From Pegea sp. RAD2-039 (taxonomy: Eukaryota; Chordata; Thaliacea; Salpida; Salpidae): a stretch of DNA of 64,000 bases. Position numbers and translations under genes: made by a program. The stretch spans positions 248,001 through 312,000 of the forward strand of contig JAQGEQ010000335.1 of NCBI GenBank assembly GCA_034620365.1. The letters run 5' to 3'. Below, one piece after another: positions 636-32,475 of the stretch (the stretch's first letter is position 1; each line of letters opens with the position of its first letter). The notes under the pieces were generated by a model. That model was not told where the DNA came from. It saw nothing but the letters and a program-made list of their open reading frames with translations, and searched no databases.

Positions 636-639
636 AATG

Positions 640-2318: not shown

Positions 2319-2560
2319 GTGGATGAATATAGTTGTTTCAAAAAAATGTGTAATAGTAAACCATGAAAGAAAATTCATATCCAATGGTCTCGAATCTACT
2401 TTTCCATATAATTGAGATTTGTATAATAAAGTTTAAAGCTCTATGGTAAATTTCAATACAGCAAGTATCACTTTCTTTCTATCTACATAGCTTCCAAAGT
2501 TCACTATAAAAAAAGATTATTCCAACTGTTTAATAATTAATTTGTCAAAGTTTTATTACT
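2319..2560 (+). repeat. direct repeat, copy 1 (non-coding)
   Basis: This block shares long runs with 3231-3480, including tggatgaatatagttgtttc, a second run covering the ccatgaaagaaaattcatat part, and a later stretch around ctacatagctt. Spacing between copies is about 912 bp. Identity is high in the first 75 bp and falls off afterwards. It is an old local duplication or two copies of an unidentified interspersed repeat. No protein is encoded. Confidence 0.75.
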
Positions 2561-3230: not shown

Positions 3231-3480
3231 TGTGGATGAATATAGTTGTTTCAAAAAAAGGTGTAATAGTAAACCATGAAAGAAAATTCATATGTATTGA
3301 TCTCGAATTTACTTTTCATATCATAAACATCTATATAATAGACCTCTATTGTAATTTCAATAAATGTATATATAATTGAATTTCAATAGAGAAAGTATCA
3401 ATTTCTTTCCATCTACATAGCTTATAAAGTTCAGCAGAAATTCTTTCAGTTGTTTAATAGTTAATTTGTCAGCGTTTTCT
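3231..3480 (+). repeat. direct repeat, copy 2 (non-coding)
   Basis: Second member of the pair with 2319-2560, in the same orientation. The homologous core covers the first ~75 bp and resumes around the ctacatagctt segment near 3412. The short open frame across it has no family features. Confidence 0.75.
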
Positions 3481-3489
3481 TTAAATTTT

Positions 3490-4730: not shown

Positions 4731-4735
4731 ATTTA

Positions 4736-7610: not shown

Positions 7611-10600
7611 TTTGATGCAATTAACAAGTTTAGAAAATCTACCAACTGTTGATGTTATATAAATGAATTAGTTGATTTAACTAAACAGTTTAAATTTAAA
7701 ACTACCAAATATTTTAAAATATTAAAAATAAAATTAATGGTCTAAGTAAGATAAATACTAAATAATTGCAAAAGAAAAAGGTAAATCAATAAAAGATTAT
7801 TAACTTCTTAAAAATATTTTTATACTAATTTTCCAGAAGTAAATAAATCTTATAATACCAAATTTTAATAGTAAAGCACCTTGCAGGTTTGTATCAAACA
7901 TATTATTATATATGTAAAACTATTGTATATAAATTATTATATAAAATATAATATTAAACAGTGTATATTCAAAAGTCCAGCCATACATAAACTATATTTC
8001 CTGTAATCAATATCATATTTAGTCATCTTTAAATCTTAGATTTCCATAAAATTTGTAAAAGTCATCATGTTTAAAATGGTTATAGGTCTTGATAAAATCA
8101 ACAAAATTTATGGCATATTTAAAATAAACACAATAGTTACACTATTAAAGAAATTTATTAATGTATAACAACAATTGTTATTTGGAAAAAATAACTAATT
8201 ATATAATTTTTCTAGAAACTTATTAAACAGTTTATATTCAGTCATACCAAAGGTATAATACAACTTTATAATTTTACTTTAGGTAAAGTACAAAAGTTGC
8301 AATTATATTAGCTATTTTAACAACATAAAAATTTACTAAAGTTATATACTAAAAAGAATAAAAAATATACTAAAGTTATATACTAAAAGATAAAGATATT
8401 ATAAATAAATATATTTTTTAGCTGATTCTGTTCTTAGAAACAAAAGGTTATTACAGAAAGAATTAGAAAATTCTATTGAAACATTATTTTACAGTTAAAC
8501 AAAAATGTTTAAAACTTCTAAATAATTAATGAACAATTAATCAAATTTTACACCACTAATATACTAAACTGAAATATGTGTGAAGTAGCTTAATATTCAA
8601 AGTAGTATTTAAAAGTCAAATTATAATTATTCAGTTAAAATTATTTATCTAAAGTATGAATTTTCAAAATAAGCAAATACTTTTGCCATTCTAAAATCAT
8701 GTAATGCTTTATAGTTCAGTTGTAACATGAACCTCTTAAAATTATCCTGTAACTATCTCAAAAAGTTTAAAAAACTTATTTTCAAAATCAATACAACAAT
8801 AATAAAGCTGATATTAAACAGTGGTAAAGATATTAGTCAAAAAATAAAACTGAAACACAACACACAATCTCCAAAAATATAATGCGATATGAAATAAGCT
8901 CACTAGAACTTTTCTTCAGTGCGAAATTTCAAAATGTAAAAAATATTCCAAAAAATAAACTCTAGAATGCACGTGATATGTTAATTAAAAATTGGTGCAT
9001 AAAGATTATTTGTGTTGACGCGCTCTCGATTAGTTGACCCGTAAAACCTGCAAACTCATTTAACAGCTGTTTAACAATTTTACATCTATTCATAAATCTT
9101 TATAAGTTAGACAAGATTTTTCAGATTTTATCTAATATTTAGTGTAAATATTTAATGTTATATTGTACAGGATTTACTAAACTATCAATTGTTACATCAT
9201 TTTTTTTAACTTAAGTATGTATAATAGGTCTCTTCTGAGCCTAGTAGTTGGTGGGAAATTTTATTTCGAGAAACTGTTAAAGTTAGATTCATCATTCATT
9301 AACTTCTTTTCTAATCTAAGCAAACTTACATACAAGATTGTATTGGAACTAGTAGCGTGTATTAATATGTTAAGAGAGCATGCCTAGAAGCCTTTTACAA
9401 TTAAAATTAGTGCTGGCAAAAATGTTTTTTAAATATATCTATTGATTGAAATTTCGGATCACTTTGGAGTGGTATGGAAAAACAAACATAAATAATTTTT
9501 ACAAACAACTGAGTAGAAAAAGTAATTATACAAGGATCATAAAACAGAGGCAAGATGTAGGTATCATAATTACTATCAATAGATACTGTTTAAAATTGTA
9601 TTTTTAGTCTTACAAAGTTGTCTTGCACACTTTAAGTCTGACTAAAACTTACACAAGATAAGATAGTAAAAATAAAGATGAAAATCCTTTTTATAATTTG
9701 ATCTGTTACAATTTGGTGTATTAAAGTCGACAAATAATTACAATCAAATTAAATTAATTTACCTTCACTAAGCGATTTTATTTAACTATAGTAAAAATTT
9801 CAAGAAGCAATTTTTAAAAGGAATATAGTTTTTCTAATTCTGTAAAATATCATCTAACTTAGTGCAGTGATATAGCCTTATAATTTTAGTACAATTGTAC
9901 GACTATTTTGAAATAAATCAGTTTCTTTATTTTCTTATAAGATCTATATAACTTTTACTATTTCAATTCTAACTCAATTATTACATTAGTGAATACTTCA
10001 AGTATGTTGGCAAGTTTCATTTCTACTGAATGACTTTTGTTCACTTAAAGTACGTCCAACTTCAAAAAAATACTTTCTTATTATTATTCAGAAAACTTTT
10101 AATTTCAGTTATTATTTAACTAAATTTATAAAAAGTTGGTTTATTTTAGTGTTTTGCAAAATCCTACTTCTTTCAAAAACTCTTTCGAGAGATGATTTAT
10201 TTGAGATCTTTCGAAACCAAACTTGTAACATAAGACATGTCAGGAAACAGAAATTGTAATATTAACTTTAAAACATGTTTGATGAGCTTACGGTTTGATT
10301 TTCACAAATTAACTTGAATTTTAGTGAAATAAATTATTTTTACGTCTTACAATAATAATTATACTAAAGCATCAACCACTTTTTGAAACAATCTTCTCAT
10401 AATTTAAAGTTTTAAACGATTTATCTTTTTGTAAAATTGAAATTAATCGCGACATAAAAAGATCAAATTCCTTTTTATCCACTTTTTATTTTTCTTAGAA
10501 ATTTATTGACAGAACGATTAGAGGTTTATAAAAAAAGAAATAGAAAGGAAAGCAATTTCAAACAAATTCGTATTTTTCCTTGTATTCTGTAGATAATTCA

Positions 10601-11139
10601 CTCACTGTATCTATAAAATGTTTTAGTAGAAACTCTGCATGATAAACAACATTGCATGTAACAGCAATTATTACTAAAATTTATGCTGCTGCATGAGTAA
10701 TCTTACCAATCATTAATATATTTGATAATACAATAGTGCGTTTGAAGAAAAGAACAAAAATGAAACCATACTCATTGATAATTACATTTAAATTCTGAGC
10801 TAATAAAGTCTTAGAAAAATAGCTAAACCGAACATCGTGTTTGATATAATTTTTTGATAGTTTAAACAAACGGAATTCGGTGAACAATTATGAATTTTCT
10901 CAAAGCATTCATCCAAATCTAACAATAAAAGATCATAAAGTTTTATAAATTTTGTAAAACTTTTATTTATTATGAATAATATGCAAAACTTTATGCAAAG
11001 ACTAAAGTATAAATTGAATATTTGATTACACAGCTATAAGCTTGGAATACATTACAAGAAATTGTAAGTACAAAGTCTCAATAATATTAGAAATAAAAAC
11101 TACCCGATATTCAATCTAACTAAATAACTATTTACTTAC
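7611..11139. other. gene-poor region between the KLHL and TSP1/EGF genes
   Basis: This region should hold the KLHL promoter (right of 7610) and the missing 3' end of the TSP1/EGF gene (left of 11,140). I found no further EGF, TSP1, membrane or other recognisable exon. A short frame after an AG near 11,071 could complete the TSP1/EGF frame, but the evidence is too thin to call it. No RNA gene was seen. Confidence 0.5.
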
Positions 11140-14100
11140 TTGTGCATTCTTTTCCATTTCCTTTATATCCCTCATTACAGGTGCATGAATATCCTCCAAT
11201 TGTATTATTACAAATTGCTTCAATATGGCATTCGTGTGTTTCACTTCCGCATTCATCAATGTCTTCATTAAAAATGAAATGATTATAAGAAAAGATATTA
11301 GGCTTAAATACAAGTTTTTTACAAACTCTAATGGATTTTACTTAGCTATTATGCTAAAAATATAAAAACAAATTATAACTTCTAATAGTAACAGTTTCAT
11401 TACGTATCCGAAAGGATTTTTGTCTAAATATCTAGTAGTGACGGTAAGTAGTAAAACAGATTAACAGGAAAATCTCATAAATGAAAACTTTTGTTATTAG
11501 TCAAGCAGCTAATTGATTTTTTATTGTGGAATAGTTGTTAGTAAAAACTATAGTTTCTGATAATCACAGTTTCCTTATTGCAAATCACTTTCTTATTTTA
11601 AAAATTTAGACACGGATGTTTTTATTGAAAATTTAATTTATCTCTAAATCTCACAAATGATAAAACTTAACGTATATCTTGCAAGTCGGATTTTGTTCAT
11701 TTTTGATTAAATGAAACTATGACTTACAAACTACTAATAGATACAAAAATATTCAATCAGATGAAGGTAATCAAATTACCTGAACAATTGTAACCGTTTC
11801 CTTGGTATCCAGAGTTACATTTACATTTGTAACTACCAATAGTATTAATACAAGCAGCATTGAAATTGCAATCTTCTAATTCATATAAACATTCATCAAT
11901 ATCTGCATATAAATGAAAAATATTTCAATTTTATATTACATCCTTTAAGAAAAGTAGAACACAAACCAAAACAAGATAAACCATTTCCCCTGTATCCACT
12001 TTTACATATACATGTAAAACTACCTTCTAAATTATTACAATTAGCTTCAGAATGACAATTATTGGTTTCATCTTCACATTCGTTAACATCTTTTAAAACA
12101 GTTTTTTTATCAATGAGAGCATTCTACTTAATCTTCATTTAGTTTTTCATTCACCTGAACACGTGACACCTTCTCCAGTAAAACCCTCTAAGCATTTACA
12201 TTGAAAACTGCCATCAATGTTGATACATTTTGCTTTACTATTACAATTGTCTTTATTCTCTTCACATTCATTTATATCTACAAGAAAATCAGAAATTTCT
12301 ACTTTGCAAGAAAATACTTAATCAAAAATCTATACTACAAATTTCTAGTATCTACTAACATTTATAAATAATCTCTTATTAGTCTATATTTGAAACTATT
12401 TTATTCATAACGAAGTTTCATAAAATAAAATAAATTTAAAATTTTGAAGAGACGCTAATTTATTTAAATCACATATAAAGATTTTTTTAAATAAGAATTT
12501 AAATTGAATACTTTGTGTGATAATAATAAGAAAAAAACATTTTTGTTCAATTAAAACAATTGTTAGTAACTGTTGGTGAATTTTACAAAAGCACAAAAAT
12601 TATCGTAGCTAATCCTTCAAGAACATATATTTACTAACCAAGACATGAAAGTCCGTCTCCTTTGTATCCTTCTTTGCATAAACATTCATAATGTCCTTTT
12701 ATATTGAAGCAATTTGCATTAACATCACAATTATGTTCGCCGTTCCCACATTCATCAACGTCTGATTGTAAAAAAACAAATTTTTTTGTTTAAACTTTTT
12801 AGTTTGCACTACCATACTATACTAAAGCTTCCATCACAAAGGATCAGTTTAAAAGAAAATAAATTTAACAAGAAGTTAATTTCAAAATTAACCTCTACAA
12901 ATAGTTCCATTTCCATGATATCCATTAGCACAAGTACAAATATAGCTGCCCAATATATCTGTACAGATTGCATCTTCATGACACAAGTCAGTTTTTATTG
13001 AGCACTCATCATCATCTAAAAAACAAGAAAAAATATTTAGAAAATATGATAGAATAAAATCTTAAGATGATAATATCAAGGTCTTTAAAAACCAAATAGT
13101 TACTGGTGCTTGTTATCTAAACCAATGATGAATCTTACGGTTATTAAGGGAGCAGTAAAAGTTTTATGATTTGTTAAAACTAAATCCTATAAAATAGTAA
13201 ATGTTCACATTTAATCGTAAATTACAAAAAAATAATTAACAATTATAAACAAATATTCTCTTACTTATACATTCGATACCATTTCCTGAATATCCTTGAT
13301 TACAAGAACATTTAAAGCTTCCAATTAGATTTGTGCAAGTTGCTACATCATTACAGTTATTTAAATTGTTTTCACATTCATCAACATCTGAAAGTTATTT
13401 AGAATTAATATTATACTAGATTTGAAATCTGTAGAAAGATTTTGAATACATAAGCTTGATCTCATCCTAACACATTTTTAAGTACCATTTCAAAGTTTAA
13501 ATCAATATTTGTTTTTTATTTACAAAATTTACTTCATGACTTTGAACAAACCTTCATCACAACAATCTCCTTTCCACCCTTTTGAACATTGGCAAGTTTG
13601 AGTTGAAGCATCTGGTGTACCATTGTTAAAGCAAATCACATTACATGGTTTAACTTGTTCAAAATAATCCGGACAAGTTCTTCCATTGCAACTTTGTTGC
13701 TGAGTAATACTTCTATTTCTTGTTGTAAGTCCTGAAACTCCACATGACTTAGTACAAGAAGTCCATGAACTCCATTGTGAGACTTGGCAATCCACTTTAA
13801 TACAATTAGTTGTTAAAAAACGTATAAAATGACTAATGCAAATAATAATTAAAAATAAATGATTTAAAAACTTTTTATAATATTCTTTTTGTGAAAGAAC
13901 AATTATTTTGTGAAGTCGGTCATTAAAGTTTTAAAACCTACAAACCTCACCTGGACAGCATTGAGTATTACAGTTAGCTATTTGAACACGTTCTCCCTCA
14001 CATACATCACCACCACAACTTGCTTCAACTTTTATTCTACGAAATCGTGTTTGCTTGCCAGTACCACAAGTTGCACTACACCTGTTTACATTTTATGTTA

Positions 14101-15335
14101 GTGTTTATACTCATAAATATCTAAATAATAAACTTACCCTTGCCATGCAGTCCATTCTGTCCATGAACAATCAACCTTACAACATTCAGTGTTACAAGAT
14201 CTCGAGTCGTTGTTTGCTCCTTGGCATGATTTGCCATGACAACTTGCGATCGTAGCAATTGTCCTCTGTCTAGATTGTAATCCACTTCCACAAGACTTTG
14301 AACAGCTTCCAAATTTACTCCAATTTGTCCATTTACAGTCAACAGCACAACACTGTGTGTTGCAGGTTATTGTTTCTGTATTTGGACCAACACAAGCGGC
14401 TCCACCGCAGCTAGCTTCTCTCGTTTTATTTCTTTGTCTGCTCTGCGATCCAGATCCACAAGTAAGTGAGCACTTATCATAACTGCTCCATTGCCCCCAT
14501 ACACAGTCAACTAGACAGCAACCACTTGAACATTGTTGTGTTTGAGTTGTTGGTCCAGAGCATGGATTCCCTCCACACTTGGCAGGTTTTGAAATCGATC
14601 TTGATCTAGTGTGGTTCCCACTTCCACATGTCACTGGACATTGCCCATATACTGACCACGGGTTCCAGATGCAATTTTCTGGGCAACAGACACGTCCACA
14701 CTTTTTACTTTCCCTTGAGCGTCCTGAGCAATCTGTTCCTTTCGACCCAAAGGCCTTTTTAGTTCTTGTTCTGTAAACTTCGGATATCGAACATGTTGTT
14801 TTGCATTTACTCCAACTAGACCAGCTGTTCCACTGACAATCTGATTTTAAATGAAATCTGTTTTATTATAATGTTTCAATATCATACTTTTGTATTGGAA
14901 TAACTTTTTACCTACGCATTGTGGAGGTGAGCATGATCTAGAATCTGGAAGGCTGCAATAACCACAGTTTCCTTGATAATTTCTTTTAACTGGTCTTATT
15001 TTAGCATCAATGCATGATGTTGATGGGCATGGATAAGAAATTAAGGTAAAATCAATAGGTGGTGCAACAGGTCTTTGGCATGTCGTAATTTGTTCACATT
15101 TACTCCAAGAAAAACAATAATTCGGACATCGTTGTCTTTTCATAAAAAAATATTTCTGAATCTTAATCATTAAGCTTCAGTTTTGTATAAACAACAAAAA
15201 TCAAGTTTTGGTTGTTTTACGAATGAATACTATTTACAATTCCGATTAAACAATTTCTAACCCATAAGCCTTTATCGGGAGATAAATCATCAGAAAATAG
15301 TTCAGTAAATATATCAGCTGTAAAGAATTCAACAT
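11140..15335 (-). CDS. secreted TSP1-EGF repeat protein; 12 exons found, 3' end not found
   Basis: Exons: 15262-15335, 14912-15135, 14138-14840, 13951-14081, 13552-13794, then seven of 123 bp at 13265, 12893, 12639, 12155, 11967, 11780 and 11140. They give 745 residues plus an open phase-1 end. Exon 1 encodes a hydrophobic leader (starts MLNSLQLIYLLNYF). A cysteine-rich segment follows, then six thrombospondin type-1 repeats with W..WS..CS.TCGSG cores and CNTQCC-type ends, one EGF-like unit, and seven calcium-binding-type EGF domains (DIDEC...CxNTIGSYxCxC..GYxGxGxxC). This suits an extracellular matrix or adhesion protein. The order TSP1x6 then EGF recalls the C-terminal half of hemicentin, but no G2F domain is visible. 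The true C-terminus is unknown. Confidence 0.88.
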
Positions 15336-16811: not shown

Positions 16812-17690
16812 CTACCTACCACCCTCTAAAATTAATGACGGGGTTACTATTAAGGCACTATTGAAGGTTCTGAAGAGTGTTGTATGTCCTGATTTATATA
16901 TTTTACTATCGTATTTAATATTAAGTTTCCCACATACTAATCTCGTAAATGTGGCCTGAACAGATTCGATTTTTTTGATATCACTAACTTGATATGGCAT
17001 CTGTGCACTGTGACATTGTATTCAAGAATTGGACGTACGTACAATTTGAAAAGGTTGATAAAAAAGCATGGGTTCTTAAAATTAAAGGTCTTTATAATAA
17101 GAAAGACAAGGTTGATTGATTTTCCAAAGATTTTGGAAACATAATTGAGCCATTTAAAGTCAGATGACAGAGTAATACCAAGGTCTAGGACCAAAGATAC
17201 TCGTTGAATAATAAATCCATTGATGAAGTATTGGTTTAGAAAATTTGCAGATGGACTACTTTCAGACTGGGCTGGATTCTGATCTGACAGTTAATAGACC
17301 AGTTTTTTACAATATTTAGTGCAGTTTGTAGTTTTGAAGGGTTGCAAGATAATAGCTTCTCATAAAAATCACACTGATATCATTTACTGCTACTAGTAAC
17401 TGATGAGGTCTTCAAGTAAAAGTAGAAATAGAAGGGGACCTAGAACGGAACCCTGAGGAACACCACTAGTGATTTGACTAGGAGTAGATAAAAGACCTTT
17501 CAACACGAGTTTGTTGGATTCTACCTGATAAATAATCTCCAATCCACTTTAAGATAAAGCTGCTGCTTTGTAAAACAAAAAGGAGTTTGTTATTTTGGAC
17601 AGAATCAAACGCCTTAGCAAAATCGAGATATTAAATGTCAACAAGAGTATTACATTCAAAATGGGCTGTAAGCTCACTAAAAAAAGAAAG
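16812..17690 (-). pseudogene. decayed LINE reverse-transcriptase fragment
   Basis: Reading the minus strand from about 17,690 leftward gives YLDFAKAFDSVQNNKLL, then SGVPQGSVLGPLLF, a VAVNDISV remnant where the catalytic YADD box would be, then DLGITLSS, LYVRPILEYN and KKIESVQATFTRLVC. These are reverse-transcriptase and thumb motifs in the right order. Stops and frameshifts interrupt them. The element is CR1/jockey-like and inactive. It may belong to the same insertion as the endonuclease piece at 16,486 after an inversion. Confidence 0.85.
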
Positions 17691-18603
17691 ACTTAAAAAT
17701 ATAACATAGTAAGCCTTAGTTTATTTTCATATAAAGATATAATGAGTAAATCAAATAATCTTAAGCAAATGTAAGACAAATGCATAATGGCATATTTGAA
17801 AGATATAATAATATCAACATCTTATATCACAGTTTCGGAAGAATTTAATAAACAGCTCCTTTAGTTAATAAAGATTGTGAAAGTTTATTTTCTTTCTGTT
17901 TATACATGTTTTAAATTATTAAAAGAAATAGTTTCTTAAATCTTATTTTTTGCAAATAAAGCTCGAAACTGAAAAATCCAAATTTATCCGCTGTTGGTTT
18001 TGTTCTTTGATATTTGTGTTTATGTTCAAAATACTATGTTCAAGATAAAAGTTAAACTATTTAGATTTAATGAAATTGTTTCAACTTTTTTTAAACAAGT
18101 AAGTTCAAAATATTATTCATGAATTCTGAAAATTGTTCATATATACAAAAGCATCTCATTAGTAGTTTTCTTGAAAATTTCTTCATAATTCCTAAATGCT
18201 TTCATGATTATGTGTTTTTATTTAAGTTGTTCAGAACTAAAAAAGGATTTTTTTTTAGTGAAAAAGATTTTAGAGAATTTATTTCTAATTTTTTTTTCTA
18301 ATTTTCAAAATCAAATTTAAAATTTCCTTTAATCAATTTTCAGACTTTCACTAAAAGTTTTTTCTATTTATGTTTATTAATTTCTTCTTTTAGAAGGAAA
18401 ATTAAATTATTAAAAATCCTTTTAATCCTTTTAATTATTAATATTATATTAAATATTTGTTCAAACTGCCAAAGAGATGTATTAAACATTTTCTAGATAG
18501 AATTAGTGCAAGGTGTTCTTTGTTTAAAATTTTTAAGAACAATGTTTAATTTGCAGATCTTTTTTTATAATGTCTTTAAAAATGTAAAAGTTTTTGTTAA
18601 ATA

Positions 18604-21600
18604 ATGATTGGAAGAAAGTGGAAAGAGGTCATTCTTCTTTTTAGTTTTATTTTTATTTGTTTTGGAGATAAACAATATTCAAAATTTGTCTTCAAAAATG
18701 AAAAGGAGAATCTGATTTTGCATCAAAATCAAAATATTTCTTTAAATTGTTCTTTAAATCTTCAAATTAGAAATAAATATTATGAAGTTTTTGGAAATGT
18801 AACTTGGTTTAAAGATGAAAAAGAGTTGAAATCAACTTCTCATCATTGGATCCTTCAAAACAGATCTTTAATTATTTTCAATCAATCTGAACTTTCTAGT
18901 TTTTATCATTGTAATTTTGTTTTGATGAATTCCATAAAACTTTCTTCCAAAAGATTTAGAGTCAAAAAAGCAATTATTAAAAGTCCAACAATTTCAGGAG
19001 ATTCAAATATTCAAATTGGTTCTTTTATTCACTTAATTTGTAATTTTTCAAATTCATTTCCCAAACCAAAAGTCTTATGGTTTCATTCTAACACATCATT
19101 GGATGATAATTTGAATGTGAAAATACTTGAAGATGGGAATTTGTTGATTTTAAATTTAAAATCGACAAATTTGGGGAAATATTTTTGTGAAATTTCAAAT
19201 GTAGCTGGAGATGAAAGAAGTGAAGAAATTGAAATCAAAATTGCTTCTCAATCAATCCCTGAGATGAAGTTCTTGAATCCTTGGAACAAATCCAGCTTCC
19301 CAGGATCAACAATCTTCTTTCATTGCTTCTCGAAGACTACTTATGACGTCGTTTGGAGTCAAGATTCAAAAATCTTGAATTTTTCAACAAATCATTTTAG
19401 AAAATTTCAAAATGGAACTTTAAAAATCACAAACATCACCTCACGTGACCACGGTATCTTCACGTGCTCATTACGTCATCAAAATATGCAAATTAGCCGC
19501 ACAAATGCTACTTTGGAAGTCATTTCACCTCCTTTCTTCACTTCAACTCCAAATCCGATTTACAAATATTCAAATTCGTCCAATCAGGTGATCCCTTGCT
19601 CAGTAGGAGGACTTCCTCAACCGGAAGTGACGTGGCTGAAGAATGGACGCGTTATTCCTAATCATCAATTGACTTCAAGTGACCCAGTTGGTTTCTATCA
19701 ATGTTTAGCGACTAATAAGTTTGGAAATATGCAAATTATAACGCAAATTGTGAATCCGTTCACTTCTACTTTCAACTCCTCATTTCATTTCAACGAAATC
19801 GCGAATGATTACGTCATTCTCAATTGGAAAAAGCCCGAAAACGATCACGTGAGCTTTGTGATTGCTTGGAGCGGCGACCGGAAATCGGAAGCGCGAATCG
19901 TGTATGAACCGGAAGTGACTATTTCCGGTCTGACGTCACAAAACAATTACGAGTTTCTACTTCTTTTTTGTGACGTCACATTTCTCGCTTGTCATCTTCA
20001 ATCTGATCTTCATCTTTCATCTGACGACTCGATTGACGTGAAGATTACTAACGTGACGTCATCAAGTGCATGCGTTGAAATCACTTCATTGATGACGTCA
20101 CAAATTAATGGAAGTTTTTACAATTTGATTGTTAAAAGTGAAAAGGAGAAATTTGAAATTGAGCCAATCACAAGCAAGTATGAATTGAATCATCTTAAAT
20201 CACAAAGTGAATATTTGTTAAAAGTTCAAATCAAGTTTCCAGATCAGAAAGTCTTCTTCACATCTCAATCGCAATTTGTTTTCAAGACTCTTGAAGAAAC
20301 TAGAAAGGTTTTAGAAGCTCCAGAAAATCTTTGTATTTCTTCCAACAAAACGTCTTCTATCATTACCTGGTCTCCTTTAAAAACAAATCAGTCTTTTGAT
20401 GGTTACAAAATCGTCATGAAAACGCGATTTTCAAAGAAGAAGAAAGTTTTTGAGGTTCCTTCAACATCAACGAGTTTTGTGTTTGGATCGCTCAGAAATC
20501 AATTGATCAAGGTGTGCGCGTTCAATAGCGCAGGTTTGGGTCGATTTTCATCACTTGTGACGTCATCAACATCAACATTAAGTCTTCTTCGAGATGAAAA
20601 TGAAGAGGAAGCTCCGGAAATCATCGAAATGATCTCAACTTCTTCCACCATCCAACTAAAATGGCGCTTATCGGAAAAATCTTCTGAGCAAGGATCTGGT
20701 TACATTTTGAAATGGGGCGAGCTATCACCAGACGCGCGTCAGAAGCGTTTACGACGTCACAAAAACTCCTTTACAATCCGAGACCTTATTCCAGACACAA
20801 CTTACTACATCAGCATCCGATGTATTAACTCGAAAAGTCACGAAAATATTCAAATTATCAAAACACAAAAGAAAAAAGTCGCCTCAACCCAAACCGACCT
20901 CTACCCACCATTAGGTGTCGCTATCGAGGTTTTATCTCCAAATTCGATCAATGTGAGTTGGGGCGATACAAATGCAAGGGCACTTGGGTCTTTTTATTCA
21001 ATTAGATGTAGAACTTCCGCTTCTGTTGACAACAAACTTCAGTTCTTCAACACAACCTCTCAAAATCTTCAAATCGATCATCTAACACCTTTCACTTATT
21101 ACCAAGTTTCAGTTCGAGTCACCGAAGCTGATGACATGATCAGTGATTGGTCGATGATTGCATCAGCAAGGACCAGTGAGATGCGACCCACATCAGCGCC
21201 TTGTGACGTCACTATTATGTCACTTGCTAATGACGTCACCAGTGTGACGTGGCAACCTCCTGAACAAGCAAATGGCAACTTGAATGGATATTTGATATTT
21301 TATTCAGTTGATTTGAAACTGGATATTTCTGATTGGATGATTGAAGTTGTAGTTGGTGCAGATGATTTAAGTTGCAAAATTGAAGGTTTAACTCCAAATA
21401 CTCATTACTATTTCATTGTGCAAGCCAGAAACAGTAAAGGGACTGGTCCTCTGTCAGATGTGGTTCACTTTCAGACCCCTAAGTCAAGTAATCAATCAGA
21501 AGACGAGGATCAGAATGGAAATTATAATATTTATTTAGTGATTGGAATCTTAGCTGTTTTGTTTATATTAGTCGTTGTCGTAGCAACTGTTGTTGTTTGT

Positions 21601-22140
21601 TGTAATGATAAATTTCCCTCATTATCATTGAGCAAAAGTAGTGAAGCAGAACGTAAGCGTCGAATCAAATACTCTCAACCTAATCACGTGACTACAAGCA
21701 CTGAAATATATCGAACCCCTGATCGAAACAGGTACCTGTCGAATGGGGTTCCTTCTAACTCGTGGTCGCGTACAACGCTGTATCGAAGTAAAACTGGTTG
21801 CTATGACGACCGAAGACTCGATTCTTACATCACACAACCTACAACAGATGAAACTCGTCCAACAGCTAGAAATAAGGAAGCCTACTTTGCGCCTTTTGCA
21901 TCTCATTTTCCCTGTGAAGCTTCTCTCAGTGATTTTGCCGGTGATAGCGCCTATGGAAGCGATCATCCGCTGACGTCATCACATCGTGATGAAGCCTGCA
22001 GTAGTCGTTTCCATGGAAACTATCGAAATGTGTCACGTGGTTTAGTTGATAAAATGAATGCTGAATTAGCAGAAGTTGTTGAGTTTGTTGAAGATATGAA
22101 AAGTAATCATTCAACAAAAGATCATGATGTTCAAGTGTAG
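18604..22140 (+). CDS. DCC/neogenin-like receptor, intronless, left copy (1178 aa)
   Basis: This is a type I membrane protein. A hydrophobic leader (residues 1-21) precedes four Ig domains (about 30-118, 125-213, 218-307, 312-385) with paired cysteines and W...C patterns. Six fibronectin III domains follow (about 390-960), then a membrane segment (about 975-999) and a ~178-residue cytoplasmic tail. Four Ig plus six FN3 is the DCC/neogenin layout, and the tail's last 35 residues contain MNAELAEVVEFVEDMKS, loosely like the P3 helix of those receptors. Netrin or RGM binding is inferred only. The start chosen is the first ATG, directly before the leader. The gene is one uninterrupted 3.5-kb exon, unlike its intron-rich neighbours. 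Robo-type or another IgFN3 receptor is an alternative. Confidence 0.9.
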   Translation: MIGRKWKEVILLFSFIFICFGDKQYSKFVFKNEKENLILHQNQNISLNCSLNLQIRNKYYEVFGNVTWFKDEKELKSTSHHWILQNRSLIIFNQSELSSFYHCNFVLMNSIKLSSKRFRVKKAIIKSPTISGDSNIQIGSFIHLICNFSNSFPKPKVLWFHSNTSLDDNLNVKILEDGNLLILNLKSTNLGKYFCEISNVAGDERSEEIEIKIASQSIPEMKFLNPWNKSSFPGSTIFFHCFSKTTYDVVWSQDSKILNFSTNHFRKFQNGTLKITNITSRDHGIFTCSLRHQNMQISRTNATLEVISPPFFTSTPNPIYKYSNSSNQVIPCSVGGLPQPEVTWLKNGRVIPNHQLTSSDPVGFYQCLATNKFGNMQIITQIVNPFTSTFNSSFHFNEIANDYVILNWKKPENDHVSFVIAWSGDRKSEARIVYEPEVTISGLTSQNNYEFLLLFCDVTFLACHLQSDLHLSSDDSIDVKITNVTSSSACVEITSLMTSQINGSFYNLIVKSEKEKFEIEPITSKYELNHLKSQSEYLLKVQIKFPDQKVFFTSQSQFVFKTLEETRKVLEAPENLCISSNKTSSIITWSPLKTNQSFDGYKIVMKTRFSKKKKVFEVPSTSTSFVFGSLRNQLIKVCAFNSAGLGRFSSLVTSSTSTLSLLRDENEEEAPEIIEMISTSSTIQLKWRLSEKSSEQGSGYILKWGELSPDARQKRLRRHKNSFTIRDLIPDTTYYISIRCINSKSHENIQIIKTQKKKVASTQTDLYPPLGVAIEVLSPNSINVSWGDTNARALGSFYSIRCRTSASVDNKLQFFNTTSQNLQIDHLTPFTYYQVSVRVTEADDMISDWSMIASARTSEMRPTSAPCDVTIMSLANDVTSVTWQPPEQANGNLNGYLIFYSVDLKLDISDWMIEVVVGADDLSCKIEGLTPNTHYYFIVQARNSKGTGPLSDVVHFQTPKSSNQSEDEDQNGNYNIYLVIGILAVLFILVVVVATVVVCCNDKFPSLSLSKSSEAERKRRIKYSQPNHVTTSTEIYRTPDRNRYLSNGVPSNSWSRTTLYRSKTGCYDDRRLDSYITQPTTDETRPTARNKEAYFAPFASHFPCEASLSDFAGDSAYGSDHPLTSSHRDEACSSRFHGNYRNVSRGLVDKMNAELAEVVEFVEDMKSNHSTKDHDVQV

Positions 22141-24531
22141 ATGCTTTCTCTGATCTTCATTTTGATATTACTGATCTTCATCTGAGTCTAATTTTTTTTA
22201 TCTTTCTTTATATCAGATCTTCATCTAATTCTTATTTTCGCCAATCTTCATCCAAACCTCAGCTGATTTTTCTTTCATCATCTTATCATCAACCAACTAC
22301 TTTTTCATTTTCTTTATCTTTTTACATTAAACTCAACTAATTCAAAAAACTTTATCTCATCACCTTCTGTATCCATTGGCAATCATGACATCATCTTACG
22401 ACCTTATGACGTCATCAACTTCTTTGTTGTTTATTTGTTATTTTGTTGATGTTAATTACAAGATCAGTTCAGACAATCAAACCAACTCAAAGTCTAAATA
22501 TTAACCAATCAGCAACCGATCTATCTAGTCTACCTCATAGCTGACAACATTTATTTTTTACTTTTTTATCAAAGCACAAGTTTGTCAAATTGAAATTTGC
22601 ATGTCTCAATATTTTCTCAAAACTTTTTTATGTCATGCTTTGATATTTTGTTTTTTTTTTTTGCATGTTTAACTTTGTCTTCGTCTTAATAAATATTTTT
22701 ACAAAACTTGTTATTTGTAGTTTCTGAAAAGGGAGTTTACCTGAAAAGTTACAATTAATCATCATTTGATGACAAATTAAATTTCCAGCTGATTTTTTCT
22801 ACAAAATTATTTTTCTAATTTTTAATATTTATTTTTGATTGATGTTTGTTAGATTTGTGATTTAGATATTTGTTGTTTAGAAGCTTGATGAGGTTTAAGT
22901 AAATTTTCAATCAATTTTCTTTTAGTTAGAAAAACTACATTCGACTTTTTCGTAAAGTTTCTGATTACTGAAAAAGTTTTGTAAACGCTGAAAGTCATTG
23001 AAGCGTAACGACTGAAAAAACTGTTTAAAAAAAAAATAATGAAAATTAGAAATAAACACACAAAAGAAAAAATGAATAAAAATTAAGTTGATTAATAAAA
23101 TTTTGAAGAAATTATCAACAAATTTTGCTAATTTGATTATTTTAAATTTAGATTTTCCATTAGACGCTATTATCAACTTTTCTCAAAATAATTTGTTTAT
23201 AAAAAGTTTCAATTGTTTTCAAAACAACTTTTTTGTCATGATTCAACTTTTCAGTTTGTTTTCAAAATTTCTTCTGAAGTTGATTTATAGAAATTGACGG
23301 TTTTAGCTTTTATACTCAACAATTTCAATTCAAATTTTTTAGTTAATTTTTTTAAATAATTAAAATTGAAATTTGCGATGAAAAATTTTGTTGTTTTTTG
23401 TCATCTTTGAAAACAATTATTTTCAAATTTTTGGATTTTTTTCTGATTCAAAAATGAATTGAAAATGAATCCCAACAAAATTTTTGATTCTTTTTTTTTT
23501 TAATTAATAAAACTTTTTTTTAAATTTAACTTTTAAATGTTTACTTTTTTCTTATCTTTTTAAAACAAATATTTGAATAAATCAGAAAAATATTTCATTT
23601 TTTCAACTCAATTCATTTTTGAATTTTTCAAATTTATTATTTTCATCTCAAAGAAACTCCAAAAAAATTGCAAATTTAATTTTCCTAAATGATATTTTTC
23701 TATATTTTTTAGTTTGAAGTCAGTTTTGACACTTAAAAATCAAATTAAGTTTCAAAAATTAATTCTTTTTCAGTTAAATTAAACATTTCATTAAAAATTC
23801 TTAGGAAGTCCTTAAAAGCGACCAAAAATTGTGACAAATTTGGCTTTTTTCACATTTGGTGTCAAAAATTCTGTTTTTCATCTTTCAACAAATTCAAAAG
23901 ATGAAATTTTACAAATTTGAAATTCAGAATTCAAACTTTCCAACATTTTTTGTCAATCAAGCATCTAATTCGATTATGACGTCATCATCGCAACACTGAC
24001 CCTTGAGGTTTAAAAACTTTTGATTGACGCCTAGAAGTTGACTTGTTTATTATTACATCAGATCGATGACGTCATAAGCTGTGTAAGTTGACAAGTTCTG
24101 TAATTTGAAGAAATTTTTTGATTAAAAGTTTTAATTTTTAGATTTGATTTTTGTAAAACTCAATAAACTGTAAAATTAAAAAAACTTTTTCCAATTTTAA
24201 AAGTATTTTTGTGGAATTACGAAGAGTTTGGAATTGATACAGAATCCTTCTTCAGTCCAAAAACAAAAAATTTGTAATGATGGAAAAGTATTTTGGAATA
24301 ATTTCAAATTTGATGAATGACTTTAACAAGAAGTTATGAAAGTGAAAAAATCATTTTCATCAAAATGATTGATGAATTTTGATAAAATCTCACTTCCGTA
24401 TAAATTGATTTATTTATTAAAAGCTTTTTCATAATTTTAAATTCAATAAAATCTTTCCAAAAATGAGAATTAAGAAAATTTATTTTTAATAATAATCCAT
24501 TTATTTAATATTTATTAACTTGATGACGTCA
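19931..24531. promoter_or_regulatory. cluster of 12 TGACGTCA octamers in the left arm
   Basis: Perfect copies start at 19931, 19971, 20054, 20093, 20558, 21204, 21231, 21971, 22407, 23977, 24067 and 24524. Eight are inside the receptor coding region, in more than one reading frame (VTS, DVT and LTS contexts), and four are in the 3' non-coding part. Near-matches such as ttacgtcatc and gtgacgtgg add to the cluster. The octamer is a consensus CREB/ATF site; function is unproven. The right arm mirrors the set. Confidence 0.75.
22688..22693 (+). promoter_or_regulatory. likely polyadenylation signal of the left receptor gene
   Basis: AATAAA about 550 bp after the stop codon, in the same orientation as the gene. 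Plausible 3' end; no cleavage site confirmed. Confidence 0.35.
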
Positions 24532-24598
24532 TCAGTGAGTTAGGTAATGCTGAAAAATTCGAAATTAATCAAAATAAATAATAAAGGTTTTTTTAGAT

Positions 24599-26076
24599 TC
24601 AAATCCAGTAGAATTAGAATTTTTTTTAATTGATTTGTAGATTAATGGAAAAAACGAATTACGAATTGAAAATATTTGAAAAATTAAAAAGTTAAATCCA
24701 ATTTTCCTTAAAGAAATGATTTTTCCTAAAAAAATTTTGAAGCTCTAAGAATTTGATGTTAGTTTTTATTTCAATTTTAGTTTGAAAAAAAGTTTCGAAT
24801 CTTTAAAAAATAGTTTTAAGCTTTTAAAAACATTAACTAAAAGTTTTTAATTGAAATTTTCACAAAAAATATTTCTAATTTTCCTCTAGGAAGTCAATTG
24901 TATAGAAGCTTTAGTCAATAATCTATTAATAATTAAAAGAGAGTTTATATTAAAAATTAAATTATTAGATGGTTGTTAAATACAGAAGGTTTTTGTAAAT
25001 TGCAAATTTGCTGAAAGAAAATTCGAAATAGTTGAAAAATTAGAAAAAGTTTTTTAGTTAAAATTTATTTCTGGACTTTTATGGATTCTACAAACACAAG
25101 GAAAAGTTTTAAAAACACCAAATAAAAGTTATTCAAATTAAATTGATTATTTTCAAAACAAAAAGCAAATTGAAAAATAATTTTAAAATCGATAAATAAA
25201 TTTTATGTTAAAATTAAAAAAAAGATATTCTAGTATATTTACAATTTTTTGTTTTGGATTATTTCCAAATACAAACGACAAAATTGAATTTTAAAAAGAT
25301 TTTCAATCGATTTGAAATATGTCAAAAACGATTAGAAGAAAATAAAATAACAAAAAAACAGATTTTCTGAAAAAAGTTTTTATTTTTCTGTTTCAAAAAA
25401 AAATTTGAGAATTAAATGAATTTTTTGAGATGCATCAAATGTTAAATCCTTTTAAACTTTTTAATCTTTCTATTATTTGAATCCAGTATTTGTAAAAGAT
25501 CCTTTTGTTTCTAATGAATAATTTAAAGCAATTTGAAATTTAAAAGATATTACACAAGACTTAAACTGAATAAAATAGTTCCAAGAAAACTGAACTAACT
25601 AACATCAAACCTAGTAATAAAAAAAAATGTAATATTTATTTGTTGACCTTGTGCTTGTTTTTAAGGTCATTTTTATTTTCAGCAATTTTGTGAGTTTATT
25701 TTTCCTTTTCAATTACAACTTTAAAACATCAAATTTAATCAAAATTAAAAATTTTACTCAAAATAAATCCAAAAAGAAGAAATTATTATCAAGTTTGTAA
25801 GAAAAGTTTAATTAATTTCAATCATTAAAAATTCGAAATTTTGAAAAATAGTAAAATTTAAAACAATAAAAACAAATTTAAAGAAAAATTTTCCAAACAT
25901 CAAATCTTTGATGAAAAACAGAATTCTTTTTTGACTCAACAGATTTATCAAGATTTGTAGAAACTAAAGATCTGTTGAAAGACATCAACTTTCAGTTGTC
26001 ACTTCAAAATGATAAATCTTTTTGTAATTCCTTTTCATTGATTGAAATATTCAAAAATTTTCAGTTAAATAAATTT
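24599..26076. other. unique spacer at the centre of the palindrome
   Basis: These 1,478 bp have no reverse-complement partner in the window. They are extremely AT-rich with long A and T runs. I see no exon, transposon ends or RNA gene. Confidence 0.75.
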
Positions 26077-27981
26077 ATCTAAAAAAACCTTTATTAATTA
26101 TTTTGATTAATTTCGAATTTTTCAGCATTACCTAACTCACTGATGACGTCATCAAGTTAATAAATATTAAATAAATGGATTATTATTAAAAATAAATTTT
26201 CTTAATTCTCATTTTTGGAAAGATTTTATTGAATTTAAAATTATGAAAAAGCTTTTAATAAATAAATCAATTTATACGGAAGTGAGATTTTATCAAAATT
26301 CATCAATCATTTTGATGAAAATGATTTTTTCACTTTCATAACTTCTTGTTAAAGTCATTCATCAAATTTGAAATTATTCCAAAATACTTTTCCATCATTA
26401 CAAATTTTTTGTTTTTGGACTGAAGAAAGATCCTGTATCAATTCCAAACTCTTCGTAATTCCACAAAAATACTTTTAAAATTGGAAAAAGTTTTTTTAAT
26501 TTTACAGTTTATTGAGTTTTACAAAAATCAAATCTAAAAATTAAAACTTTTAATCAAAAAAATTTCTTCAAATTACAGAACTTGTCAACTTACACAGCTT
26601 ATGACGTCATCGATCTGATGTAATAATAAACAAGTCAACTTCTAGGCGTCAATCAAAAGTTTTTAAACCTCAAGGGTCAGTGTTGCGATGATGACGTCAT
26701 AATCGAATTAGATGCTTGATTGACAAAAAATGTTGGAAAGTTTGAATTCTGAATTTCAAATTTGTAAAATTTCATCTTTTGAATTTGTTGAAAGATGAAA
26801 AACAGAATTTTTGACACCAAATGTGAAAAAAGCCAAATTTGTCACAATTTTTGGTCGCTTTTAAGGACTTCCTAAGAATTTTTAATGAAATGTTTAATTT
26901 AACTGAAAAAGAATTAATTTTTGAAACTTAATTTGATTTTTAAGTGTCAAAACTGACTTCAAACTAAAAAATATAGAAAAATATCATTTAGGAAAATTAA
27001 ATTTGAAATTTTTTTGGAGTTTCTTTGAGATGAAAATAATAAATTTGAAAAATTCAAAAATGAATTGAGTTGAAAAAATGAAATATTTTTCTGATTTATT
27101 CAAATATTTGTTTTAAAAAGATAAGAAAAAAGTAAACATTTAAAAGTTAAATTTAAAAAAAAGTTTTATTAATTAAAAAAAAAAAGAATCAAAAATTTTG
27201 TTGGGATTCATTTTCAATTCATTTTTGAATCAGAAAAAAATCCAAAAATTTGAAAATAATTGTTTTCAAAGATGACAAAAAACAACAAAATTTTTCATCG
27301 CAAATTTCAATTTTAATTATTTAAAAAAATTAACTAAAAAATTTGAATTGAAATTGTTGAGTATAAAAGCTAAAACCGTCAATTTCTATAAATCAACTTC
27401 AGAAGAAATTTTGAAAACAAACTGAAAAGTTGAATCATGACAAAAAAGTTGTTTTGAAAACAATTGAAACTTTTTATAAACAAATTATTTTGAGAAAAGT
27501 TGATAATAGCGTCTAATGGAAAATCTAAATTTAAAATAATCAAATTAGCAAAATTTGTTGATAATTTCTTCAAAATTTTATTAATCAACTTAATTTTTAT
27601 TCATTTTTTCTTTTGTGTGTTTATTTCTAATTTTCATTATTTTTTTTTAAACAGTTTTTTCAGTCGTTACGCTTCAATGACTTTCAGCGTTTACAAAACT
27701 TTTTCAGTAATCAGAAACTTTACGAAAAAGTCGAATGTAGTTTTTCTAACTAAAAGAAAATTGATTGAAAATTTACTTAAACCTCATCAAGCTTCTAAAC
27801 AACAAATATCTAAATCACAAATCTAACAAACATCAATCAAAAATAAATATTAAAAATTAGAAAAATAATTTTGTAGAAAAAATCAGCTGGAAATTTAATT
27901 TGTCATCAAATGATGATTAATTGTAACTTTTCAGGTAAACTCCCTTTTCAGAAACTACAAATAACAAGTTTTGTAAAAATA

Positions 27982-27987
27982 TTTATT
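27982..27987 (-). promoter_or_regulatory. likely polyadenylation signal of the right receptor gene
   Basis: Minus-strand AATAAA, mirror of the signal at 22688 and about 545 bp after the right copy's stop codon. Confidence 0.35.
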
Positions 27988-28531
27988 AAGACGAAGACAA
28001 AGTTAAACATGCAAAAAAAAACAAAATATCAAAGCATGACATAAAAAAGTTTTGAGAAAATATTGAGACATGCAAATTTCAATTTGACAAACTTGTGCTT
28101 TGATAAAAAAGTAAAAAATAAATGTTGTCAGCTATGAGGTAGACTAGATAGATCGGTTGCTGATTGGTTAATATTTAGACTTTGAGTTGGTTTGATTGTC
28201 TGAACTGATCTTGTAATTAACATCAACAAAATAACAAATAAACAACAAAGAAGTTGATGACGTCATAAGGTCGTAGGATGATGTCATGATTGCCAATGGA
28301 TACAGAAGGTGATGAGATAAAGTTTTTTGAATTAGTTGAGTTTAATGTAAAAAGATAAAGAAAATGAAAAAGTAGTTGGTTGATGATAAGATGATGAAAG
28401 AAAAATCATCTGAGGTTTGGATGAAGATTGGCGAAAATAAGAATTAGATGAAGATCTGATATAAAGAAAGATAAAAAAAATTAGACTCAGATGAAGATCA
28501 GTAATATCAAAATGAAGATCAGAGAAAGCAT

Positions 28532-31500
28532 CTACACTTGAACATCATGATCTTTTGTTGAATGATTACTTTTCATATCTTCAACAAACTCAACAACTTC
28601 TGCTAATTCAGCATTCATTTTATCAACTAAACCACGTGACACATTTCGATAGTTTCCATGGAAACGACTACTGCAGGCTTCATCACGATGTGATGACGTC
28701 AGCGGATGATCGCTTCCATAGGCGCTATCACCGGCAAAATCACTGAGAGAAGCTTCACAGGGAAAATGAGATGCAAAAGGCGCAAAGTAGGCTTCCTTAT
28801 TTCTAGCTGTTGGACGAGTTTCATCTGTTGTAGGTTGTGTGATGTAAGAATCGAGTCTTCGGTCGTCATAGCAACCAGTTTTACTTCGATACAGCGTTGT
28901 ACGCGACCACGAGTTAGAAGGAACCCCATTCGACAGGTACCTGCTTCGATCAGGGGTTCGATATATTTCAGTGCTTGTAGTCACGTGATTAGGTTGAGAG
29001 TATTTGATTCGACGCTTACGTTCTGCTTCACTACTTTTGCTCAATGATAATGAGGGAAATTTATCATTACAACAAACAACAACAGTTGCTACGACAACGA
29101 CTAATATAAACAAAACAGCTAAGATTCCAATCACTAAATAAATATTATAATTTCCATTCTGACCCTCGTCTTCTGATTGATTACTTGACTTAGGGGTCTG
29201 AAAGTGAACCACATCTGACAGAGGACCAGTCCCTTTACTGTTTCTGGCTTGCACAATGAAATAGTAATGAGTATTTGGAGTTAAACCTTCAATTTTGCAA
29301 CTTAAATCATCTGCACCAACTACAACTTCAATCATCCAATCAGAAATATCCAGTTTCAAATCAACTGAATAAAATATCAAATATCCATTCAAGTTGCCAT
29401 TTGCTTGTTCAGGAGGTTGCCACGTCACACTGGTGACGTCATTAGCAACTGACATAATAGTGACGTCACAAGGCGCTGATGTGGGTCGCATCTCACTGGT
29501 CCTTGCTGATGCAATCATCGACCAATCACTGATCATGTCATCAGCTTCGGTGACTCGAACTGAAACTTGGTAATAAGTGAAAGGTGTTAGATGATCGATT
29601 TGAAGATTTTGAGAGGTTGTGTTGAAGAACTGAAGTTTGTTGTCAACAGAAGCAGAAGTTCTACATCTAATTGAATAAAAAGACCCAAGTGCCCTTGCAT
29701 TTGTATCGCCCCAACTTACATTGATCGAATTTGGAGATAAAACCTCGATAGCGACACCTAATGGTGGGTAGAGGTCGGTTTGGGTTGAGGCGACTTTTTT
29801 CTTTTGTGTTTTGATAATTTGAATATTTTCGTGACTTTTCGAGTTAATACATCGGATGCTGATGTAGTAAGTTGTGTCTGGAATAAGGTCTCGGATTGTA
29901 AAGGAGTTTTTGTGACGTCGTAAACGCTTCTGACGCGCGTCTGGTGATAGCTCGCCCCATTTCAAAATGTAACCAGATCCTTGCTCAGAAGATTTTTCCG
30001 ATAAGCGCCATTTTAGTTGGATGGTGGAAGAAGTTGAGATCATTTCGATGATTTCCGGAGCTTCCTCTTCACTTTCATCTCGAAGAAGACTTAATGTTGA
30101 TGTTGATGACGTCACAAGTGATGAAAATCGACCCAAACCTGCGCTATTGAACGCGCACACCTTGATCAATTGATTTCTGAGCGATCCAAACACAAAACTC
30201 GTTGATGTTGAAGGAACCTCAAAAACTTTCTTCTTCTTTGAAAATCGCGTTTTCATGACGATTTTGTAACCATCAAAAGACTGATTTGTTTTTAAAGGAG
30301 ACCAGGTGATGATAGAAGACGTTTTGTTGGAAGAAATACAAAGATTTTCTGGAGCTTCTAAAACCTTTCTAGTTTCTTCAAGAGTCTTGAAAACAAATTG
30401 CGATTGAGATGTGAAGAAAACTTTCTGATCTGGAAACTTGATTTGAACTTTTAACAAATATTCACTTTGTGATTTAAGATGATTCAATTCATACTTGCTT
30501 GTGATTGGCTCAATTTCAAATTTCTCCTTTTCACTTTTAACAATCAAATTGTAAAAACTTCCATTAATTTGTGACGTCATCAATGAAGTGATTTCAACGC
30601 ATGCACTTGATGACGTCACGTTAGTAATCTTCACGTCAATCGAGTCGTCAGATGAAAGATGAAGATCAGATTGAAGATGACAAGCGAGAAATGTGACGTC
30701 ACAAAAAAGAAGTAGAAACTCGTAATTGTTTTGTGACGTCAGACCGGAAATAGTCACTTCCGGTTCATACACGATTCGCGCTTCCGATTTCCGGTCGCCG
30801 CTCCAAGCAATCACAAAATTCACGTGATCGTTTTCGGGCTTTTTCCAATTGAGAATGACGTAATCATTCGCGATTTCGTTGAAATGAAATGAGGAGTTGA
30901 AAGTAGAAGTGAACGGATTCACAATTTGCGTTATAATTTGCATATTTCCAAACTTATTAGTCGCTAAACATTGATAGAAACCAACTGGGTCACTTGAAGT
31001 CAATTGATGATTAGGAATAACGCGTCCATTCTTCAGCCACGTCACTTCCGGTTGAGGAAGTCCTCCTACTGAGCAAGGGATCACCTGATTGGACAAATTT
31101 GAATATTTGTAAATCGGATTTGGAGTTGAAGTGAAGAAAGGAGGTGAAATGACTTCCAAAGTAGCATTTGTGCGGCTAATTTGCATATTTTGATGACGTA
31201 ATGAGCACGTGAAGATACCGTGGTCACGTGAGGTGATGTTTGTGATTTTTAAAGTTCCATTTTGAAATTTTCTAAAATGATTTGTTGAAAAATTCAAGAT
31301 TTTTGAATCTTGACTCCAAACGACGTCATAAGTAGTCTTCGAGAAGCAATGAAAGAAGATTGTTGATCCTGGGAAGCTGGATTTGTTCCAAGGATTCAAG
31401 AACTTCATCTCAGGGATTGATTGAGAAGCAATTTTGATTTCAATTTCTTCACTTCTTTCATCTCCAGCTACATTTGAAATTTCACAAAAATATTTCCCCA

Positions 31501-32068
31501 AATTTGTCGATTTTAAATTTAAAATCAACAAATTCCCATCTTCAAGTATTTTCACATTCAAATTATCATCCAATGATGTGTTAGAATGAAACCATAAGAC
31601 TTTTGGTTTGGGAAATGAATTTGAAAAATTACAAATTAAGTGAATAAAAGAACCAATTTGAATATTTGAATCTCCTAAAATTGTTGGACTTTTAATAATT
31701 GCTTTTTTGACTCTAAATCTTTTGGAAGAAAGTTTTATAGAATTCATCAAAACAAAATTACAATGATAAAAACTAGAAAGTTCAGATTGATTGAAAATAA
31801 TTAAAGATCTGTTTTGAAGGATCCAATGATGAGAAGTTGATTTCAACTCTTCTTCATCTTTAAACCAAGTTACATTTCCAAAAACTTCATAATATTTATT
31901 TCTAATTTGAAGATTTAAAGAACAATTTAAAGAAATATTTTGATTTTGATGCAAAATCAGATTCTCCTTTTCATTTTTGAAGACAAATTTTGAATATTGT
32001 TTATCTCCAAAACAAATAAAAATAAAACTAAAAAGAAGAATGACCTCTTTCCACTTTCTTCCAATCAT
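28532..32068 (-). CDS. DCC/neogenin-like receptor, intronless, right copy (1178 aa)
   Basis: Same length and domain order as the copy at 18604-22140: leader, four Ig, six FN3, membrane segment, tail ending KDHDVQV. I count eight amino-acid differences, left to right copy: Lys73 to Glu; Ser to Leu in the ISGDS and YSNSS contexts; Ser to Asn in DHVSF; Asn to Ser in DENEE and DRNRY; Leu to Val in MSLAND; Asp to Gly in EDEDQ. Both frames are fully open. This suggests a very recent duplication, ongoing gene conversion, or two alleles placed in one contig. The two genes converge, with 3' ends facing the palindrome centre. Netrin-receptor-type function is inferred from domain layout only. Confidence 0.9.
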   Translation of the reverse strand: MIGRKWKEVILLFSFIFICFGDKQYSKFVFKNEKENLILHQNQNISLNCSLNLQIRNKYYEVFGNVTWFKDEEELKSTSHHWILQNRSLIIFNQSELSSFYHCNFVLMNSIKLSSKRFRVKKAIIKSPTILGDSNIQIGSFIHLICNFSNSFPKPKVLWFHSNTSLDDNLNVKILEDGNLLILNLKSTNLGKYFCEISNVAGDERSEEIEIKIASQSIPEMKFLNPWNKSSFPGSTIFFHCFSKTTYDVVWSQDSKILNFSTNHFRKFQNGTLKITNITSRDHGIFTCSLRHQNMQISRTNATLEVISPPFFTSTPNPIYKYSNLSNQVIPCSVGGLPQPEVTWLKNGRVIPNHQLTSSDPVGFYQCLATNKFGNMQIITQIVNPFTSTFNSSFHFNEIANDYVILNWKKPENDHVNFVIAWSGDRKSEARIVYEPEVTISGLTSQNNYEFLLLFCDVTFLACHLQSDLHLSSDDSIDVKITNVTSSSACVEITSLMTSQINGSFYNLIVKSEKEKFEIEPITSKYELNHLKSQSEYLLKVQIKFPDQKVFFTSQSQFVFKTLEETRKVLEAPENLCISSNKTSSIITWSPLKTNQSFDGYKIVMKTRFSKKKKVFEVPSTSTSFVFGSLRNQLIKVCAFNSAGLGRFSSLVTSSTSTLSLLRDESEEEAPEIIEMISTSSTIQLKWRLSEKSSEQGSGYILKWGELSPDARQKRLRRHKNSFTIRDLIPDTTYYISIRCINSKSHENIQIIKTQKKKVASTQTDLYPPLGVAIEVLSPNSINVSWGDTNARALGSFYSIRCRTSASVDNKLQFFNTTSQNLQIDHLTPFTYYQVSVRVTEADDMISDWSMIASARTSEMRPTSAPCDVTIMSVANDVTSVTWQPPEQANGNLNGYLIFYSVDLKLDISDWMIEVVVGADDLSCKIEGLTPNTHYYFIVQARNSKGTGPLSDVVHFQTPKSSNQSEDEGQNGNYNIYLVIGILAVLFILVVVVATVVVCCNDKFPSLSLSKSSEAERKRRIKYSQPNHVTTSTEIYRTPDRSRYLSNGVPSNSWSRTTLYRSKTGCYDDRRLDSYITQPTTDETRPTARNKEAYFAPFASHFPCEASLSDFAGDSAYGSDHPLTSSHRDEACSSRFHGNYRNVSRGLVDKMNAELAEVVEFVEDMKSNHSTKDHDVQV

Positions 32069-32475
32069 TATTTAACAAAAACTTTTACATTTTTAAAGGA
32101 CATTATAAAAAAAGATCTGCAAATTAAACTTTGTTCTTAAAAATTTTAAACAAAGAACTTTGCACTAATTCTATCTAGAAAATGTTTAATACATCTCTTT
32201 GGCAGTTTGAACAAATATTTAATATAATATTAATAATTAAAAGGATTAAAAGGTTTTTTAATAATTTAATTTTCCTTCTAAAAGAAGAAATTAATAAACA
32301 TAAATAGAAAAAACTTTTAGTGAAAGTCTGAAAATTGATTAAAGGAAATTTTAAATTTGATTTTGAAAATTAGAAAAATAAATTAGAAATAAATTCTCTA
32401 AAATCTTTTTCACTAAAAAAACAAAACTTCTTTTTTAGTTCTGAACAACTTAAATAAAAACACATAATCATGAAA

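Follow-up and report, generated by a model that had tools for sequence, protein, structure and literature searches.

The window analysed here is a stretch of 64,000 nucleotides from the salp Pegea sp. RAD2-039 (C81:248001-312000, where C81 is contig JAQGEQ010000335.1, 465,785 bp long), and positions are those of the window unless a contig is named. It holds a palindrome whose two arms each carry a gene predicted to encode a DCC/neogenin-type netrin receptor. When the window was compared with itself by BLASTN there was one long inverted pair, 18200-24598 against 32475-26077, which matched over 6,405 columns with 99.422% identity, 25 mismatches, 8 gap openings, and E=0. The next-longest repeat in this comparison was 117 bp as against 6.4 kb for the arms, and the arm match is far beyond chance. 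When the two arms were aligned with MAFFT, 26 substitutions and 6 indel events were found. Both arms are 6,399 bp long because the six bases that are gapped in each arm cancel out, and their equal length is therefore a coincidence of indels. With two copies longer than 1 kb, at least 90% identical (6,399 bp and 99.42% here) and in opposite orientation, the pair is an inverted segmental duplication by definition. An earlier note on this DNA had described near-perfect reverse-complement arms of equal length around a unique spacer with an intact gene in each arm, and both alignments bear out the arms and the spacer at the coordinates given below, while an uninterrupted open reading frame (ORF) of 1,178 codons was found in both arms. 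The features are as follows.

18200..24598, plus strand: left arm, 6,399 bp; inverted self-match of 99.42%; one of two full-length places in the assembly
24599..26076, no strand: spacer, 1,478 bp; 19.6% G+C; single full-length place in the assembly
26077..32475, minus strand: right arm, 6,399 bp; reverse complement of the left arm
18604..22140, plus strand: predicted DCC/neogenin-like netrin receptor gene, left copy; single exon, 1,178 aa
28532..32068, minus strand: predicted DCC/neogenin-like netrin receptor gene, right copy; single exon, 1,178 aa; differs from the left copy at 8 residues

The two receptor genes converge on the spacer, and in each arm the coding sequence is preceded by about 400 bp and followed by 2.5 kb of noncoding sequence. 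When the receptor protein was compared with Pfam, fibronectin III was detected with E=1.7e-43, four fn3 stretches passing on their own, and Ig_3 was detected in three stretches. Among solved structures the best match was neogenin (E=2.1e-50, residues 669-962), and DCC matched the immunoglobulin part (residues 171-385). Immunoglobulin domains at the N-terminus are thus followed by fibronectin III domains, as in DCC and neogenin, and it is from these domains and structure matches that the arm gene is identified as a predicted DCC/neogenin-type netrin receptor. Receptors of this type have a single transmembrane segment and a cytoplasmic tail with the conserved motifs P1-P3. In the salp protein one hydrophobic segment was seen by eye after residue 970, and a search with the cytoplasmic tail found nothing among solved chains at E-values up to 10. 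This tail and the single 3.5-kb exon are the points in which it differs from the known DCC/neogenin netrin receptors. The assembly that was searched has 105,744,746 bases in 387 contigs, and in these 105.7 Mb no other DCC-like gene was found among the best 39 of 44 candidates scored in a protein search, whose one match besides the two arms was a marginal fibronectin one on contig C1 (E=4.1e-4). When the assembly was searched for fn3, among the best 150 of 438 candidates frames longer than that of the receptor were found only on C1, where they reach 6,547 aa, and those on the other listed contigs were at most 533 aa. Thus, among such genes in this assembly a single exon of 3.5 kb is unusual, although not unique. 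Among the papers listed in searches on palindromes and inverted duplications in tunicates, on intronless neogenin in ascidians, and on DCC in Ciona, no such locus was met in titles and opening parts of abstracts.

The arm occurs at full length at two places in the assembly, both on C81 and well inside it, the other 13 arm matches among those listed are short, and no third full-length arm was found on any contig in the assembly search. The left flank (510 bp) had a single match in the assembly, the right flank (1,825 bp) had one full-length place and five partial repeat matches, and the spacer had one full-length place and one partial match of about 100 bp on contig C71 at 73%. The outer flanks did not match each other in the BLASTN self-comparison of the window. 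The second arm therefore occupies a true second place in the assembly, with distinct flanks that each occur once. The homology ends sharply at 18200 and 32475, and C81 runs on well past both arms. These results bear on the possibility, raised in the earlier note, that two haplotypes or an amplification chimera were joined into a false palindrome. C81 is repeat-rich, which is where assemblers err, and the 0.6% divergence between the arms is within the range that two alleles of a tunicate could show. However, a head-to-head join or a hairpin would carry the homology outward from the centre to a contig or read end, and as the homology stops at the arm edges neither of them fits. A simple head-to-head join would produce none of the flanks, the edges, and the copy number that are seen, and a haplotype with an inverted segment would, on reasoning, not put the spacer between opposite arms. 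The joining of two haplotypes head to head is thus disfavoured by the flanks and the spacer. Similarly, artificial palindromes made by whole-genome amplification, as described in passages of PMC6218980, share with this locus inverted copies that lie close together, but here there are two different once-occurring flanks, which an amplification hairpin should lack, and 26 substitutions between the arms. With a palindrome that lies inside a 466-kb contig and shows no homology beyond its arms, an assembly artefact is in our judgement improbable.

The junctions were also examined. Microhomology, as judged by eye, is at most 1 bp in either direction, and the junctions favour neither arm as the ancestral one. 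As for a target-site duplication, no 7-base match was found between the left flank and the start of the spacer or between the end of the spacer and the right flank, and the remaining two junction comparisons gave matches that lie inside the arms except for a single A/T-rich 7-mer within the spacer. The arm showed no strong terminal inverted repeat and, by eye, no poly(A) tail at its ends. An arm that is a mobile element or an mRNA retrocopy inserted twice in opposite orientations is therefore disfavoured, with only two full-length copies in the assembly and neither strong terminal repeats nor a target-site duplication. Moreover, what the arm carries is a host gene flanked on either side by noncoding sequence. 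What speaks for such an insertion is that the receptor gene is intronless although a nearby connexin gene has an intron, as judged by eye, and that repeats lie 0.5 to 1.3 kb from the arms, but on the whole we consider this explanation highly improbable. The introns may have been lost earlier, by way of an mRNA copy that predates the duplication. Two repeats outside the arms were noted. The one beyond the right arm is a dispersed repeat (about 34390-37160) that starts about 2 kb from the arm and has dozens of matches in the assembly at 67-95% identity (best 39 of 836 candidates, with a 9.5-kb flank query); it looks retrotransposon-like by eye, and one ORF in it had no Pfam match. The one beyond the left arm contains an ORF (16937-17290, minus strand) that had no Pfam match and by eye looks like the tail of a reverse transcriptase.

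16905..17686, no strand: repeat lying 0.5 kb from the left arm on its outer side; similarity to its other copies on the contig 78-85%

The surroundings of the palindrome are rich in duplications. C81:48001-248000 was joined to the window and the resulting 264 kb was compared with itself, duplicates being counted at a length of at least 1 kb and an identity of at least 80%. In the upstream 200 kb, 66% of the sequence lies in duplicates, 48.2% having an inverted partner and 50.5% a direct partner. The first 16,000 positions of the window are 90.3% in duplicates, and in 16001-64000 the palindrome accounts for the value of 26.7%. The 264 kb contain 11 inverted pairs of at least 1 kb whose members lie within 15 kb of each other, the palindrome included, and the palindrome is the longest, the most similar, and the closest of them; many of the other 10 share the same stretches and are therefore not independent events. 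A direct pair just before the palindrome matches over 6,050 columns at 99.36% and is as similar as the two arms. The duplicated part is discontinuous, with a direct array at the start of the upstream piece, a nearly copy-free stretch at about C81:78,000-123,000, and then the main block, which runs from about C81:123,000 to the first 17 kb of the window and holds pieces of Kelch, thrombospondin type 1, and reverse-transcriptase genes. The edge of this block lies in the window and carries Kelch and thrombospondin type 1 gene pieces.

1..14913, no strand: border of the block of upstream duplications; consists mainly of direct copies (96.5-99.4%) of sequence that lies about 26 kb upstream

Given the large direct and inverted duplications in the first 16 kb of the window and in the 200 kb upstream, a local inverted duplication is unsurprising in this setting. 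Two direct repeats were also observed in these surroundings. One has a unit of about 23 kb, whose second copy lies some 26 kb downstream and extends into the first 15 kb of the window; the other, C81:48001-66698, has a 6.35-kb period and about three copies that are 98.4-98.6% identical.

The differences between the arms were then counted by region. The coding sequence differs at 14 of 3,537 bp, nine changes being nonsynonymous and five synonymous when two changes in one codon are counted together as nonsynonymous, which gives a pN of 0.0032, a pS of 0.0066, and a pN/pS of 0.49. Neither receptor frame has a stop or a frameshift, and the six indel events all fall in noncoding sequence (P=0.008 for an even spread). 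From this, both receptor copies look functional or only recently released. The substitutions are denser towards the outer ends of the arms: nine of the 26 are within the outer 800 bp (P=0.003), and the outer 5' noncoding part has six in 404 bp as against six in 2,458 bp in the inner noncoding part (Fisher P=0.0035), both tests having been chosen post hoc. Such a drop in divergence towards the centre speaks for an older palindrome in which gene conversion between the arms has maintained their similarity, as happens in sex-chromosome palindromes, a possibility that the earlier note had put forward. However, with 26 substitutions placed evenly, a substitution-free tract as long as the longest one here, 1,274 bp, would not be unusual (P=0.08), and a Kolmogorov-Smirnov test against an even spread gave P=0.13. 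Conversion is also not required for a divergence of 0.4-0.6% if the copy is young, and among the neighbouring duplicate pieces identity varies between about 78 and 99.4%. A young duplication would account for the 99.4% identity without conversion. The evidence for gene conversion is a hint and no more, and an older palindrome maintained in this way is unlikely. The palindromes of primate Y chromosomes likewise consist of long inverted arms that carry intact genes and enclose a short unique spacer. Their arms are mostly longer and more alike, and conversion in them has been demonstrated by comparison between species, whereas here the arms differ by 0.6% and the evidence for conversion is weak. 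Of the suggestion in the earlier note, then, the genuine inverted duplication stands as the best fit, and the part that concerns conversion finds weak support.

What is observed in the assembly is two copies, flanks and a spacer that occur once, sharp edges, intact frames, and duplication-rich surroundings. The reading that we prefer, to which we would give a probability of about 0.8, is that the palindrome is real and arose by a recent inverted segmental duplication in which an intronless netrin-receptor gene was copied locally, on the border of a region full of duplicates. The segment, 6.4 kb long and holding the complete gene, would have been copied a single time and placed in reverse 1.5 kb from the original, next to sequence that has repeatedly undergone both direct and inverted duplication. 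The usual routes to such a structure are template switching in replication repair and end joining of a captured copy. Here template switching during replication or the joining of broken ends may have made the copy, using little or no microhomology, and the copy would be young. Both receptor genes would be expressed and roughly redundant, and as they converge, overlapping 3' transcripts could, speculatively, form double-stranded RNA.

Several points weigh against this recent local duplication. The structure is known from one assembly, in which a subtler local error is possible. The upstream block was examined because it adjoins the window, and the figures for duplication cover these 264 kb alone. 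The nine nonsynonymous changes among the 14 in the coding sequence are not distinguishable from neutral (P=0.16), and the argument from the indels is weakened by base composition, as the noncoding parts of the arms have 18-23% G+C compared to 37% in the coding part and A+T-richer sequence favours indels. Finally, the excess of substitutions in the outer 800 bp is not what a simple single duplication would predict. A further variant builds on the convergent arrangement, namely that the two receptor copies exchange sequence by conversion that is strongest near the centre and so form a homogenised pair of the only DCC-type gene found, itself intronless, its dose perhaps tuned by double-stranded RNA from the converging transcripts; this we regard as improbable.

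The recent local duplication can be compared with young duplicates in other animals. Newborn duplicates in Caenorhabditis elegans are often adjacent and inverted, according to passages of PMC2728529 and PMC4546093, and among young human intrachromosomal duplicates 77 of 143 are inverse, as given in a part of PMC4546093. The salp copies resemble those of C. elegans and human, as these passages present them, in being adjacent, inverted, and highly similar, and they differ in that the duplicated span covers one whole single-exon gene with both frames intact. Since adjacent inverted newborn duplicates are common in C. elegans and inverse ones frequent among young intrachromosomal duplicates in human, the form of the duplication is a known and ordinary one.

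Some other genes were noticed. In the window, connexin matches lie on the minus strand at 54908-55168 and 55499-56182, and the intron between them looks like a canonical GT-AG intron by eye. Connexins are used by chordates and innexins by non-chordates, as stated in a passage of PMC8769644. The connexin gene thus points to a chordate host and, taken with the genome size, probably to a tunicate. A search of the assembly for COX1, with prokaryotes as controls (8 of 14 positive), found nothing. Upstream of the duplication block, at positions 7822-9999 of the piece L022 on the minus strand, an open frame of 726 aa runs to the end of that piece; its domains are those of LDL-receptor class A and of a seven-helix receptor. 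On contig C1, at about 737600-836300, lies a giant fibronectin III gene region, titin-like by guess, to which the open frames of up to 6,547 aa belong, and its fibronectin III matches recur with a period of about 4.2 kb, which suggests internal tandem duplication.

Anyone who uses the assembly should handle the two copies as a pair, since otherwise the gene counts, read mapping, and variant calls for this receptor will be unreliable. For biology, the locus adds, in a small animal genome, one clean inverted duplication, apparently a young one, of the only DCC-type gene that was found there, and given sequenced relatives such pairs could be used to test the speed at which inverted copies convert or diverge.

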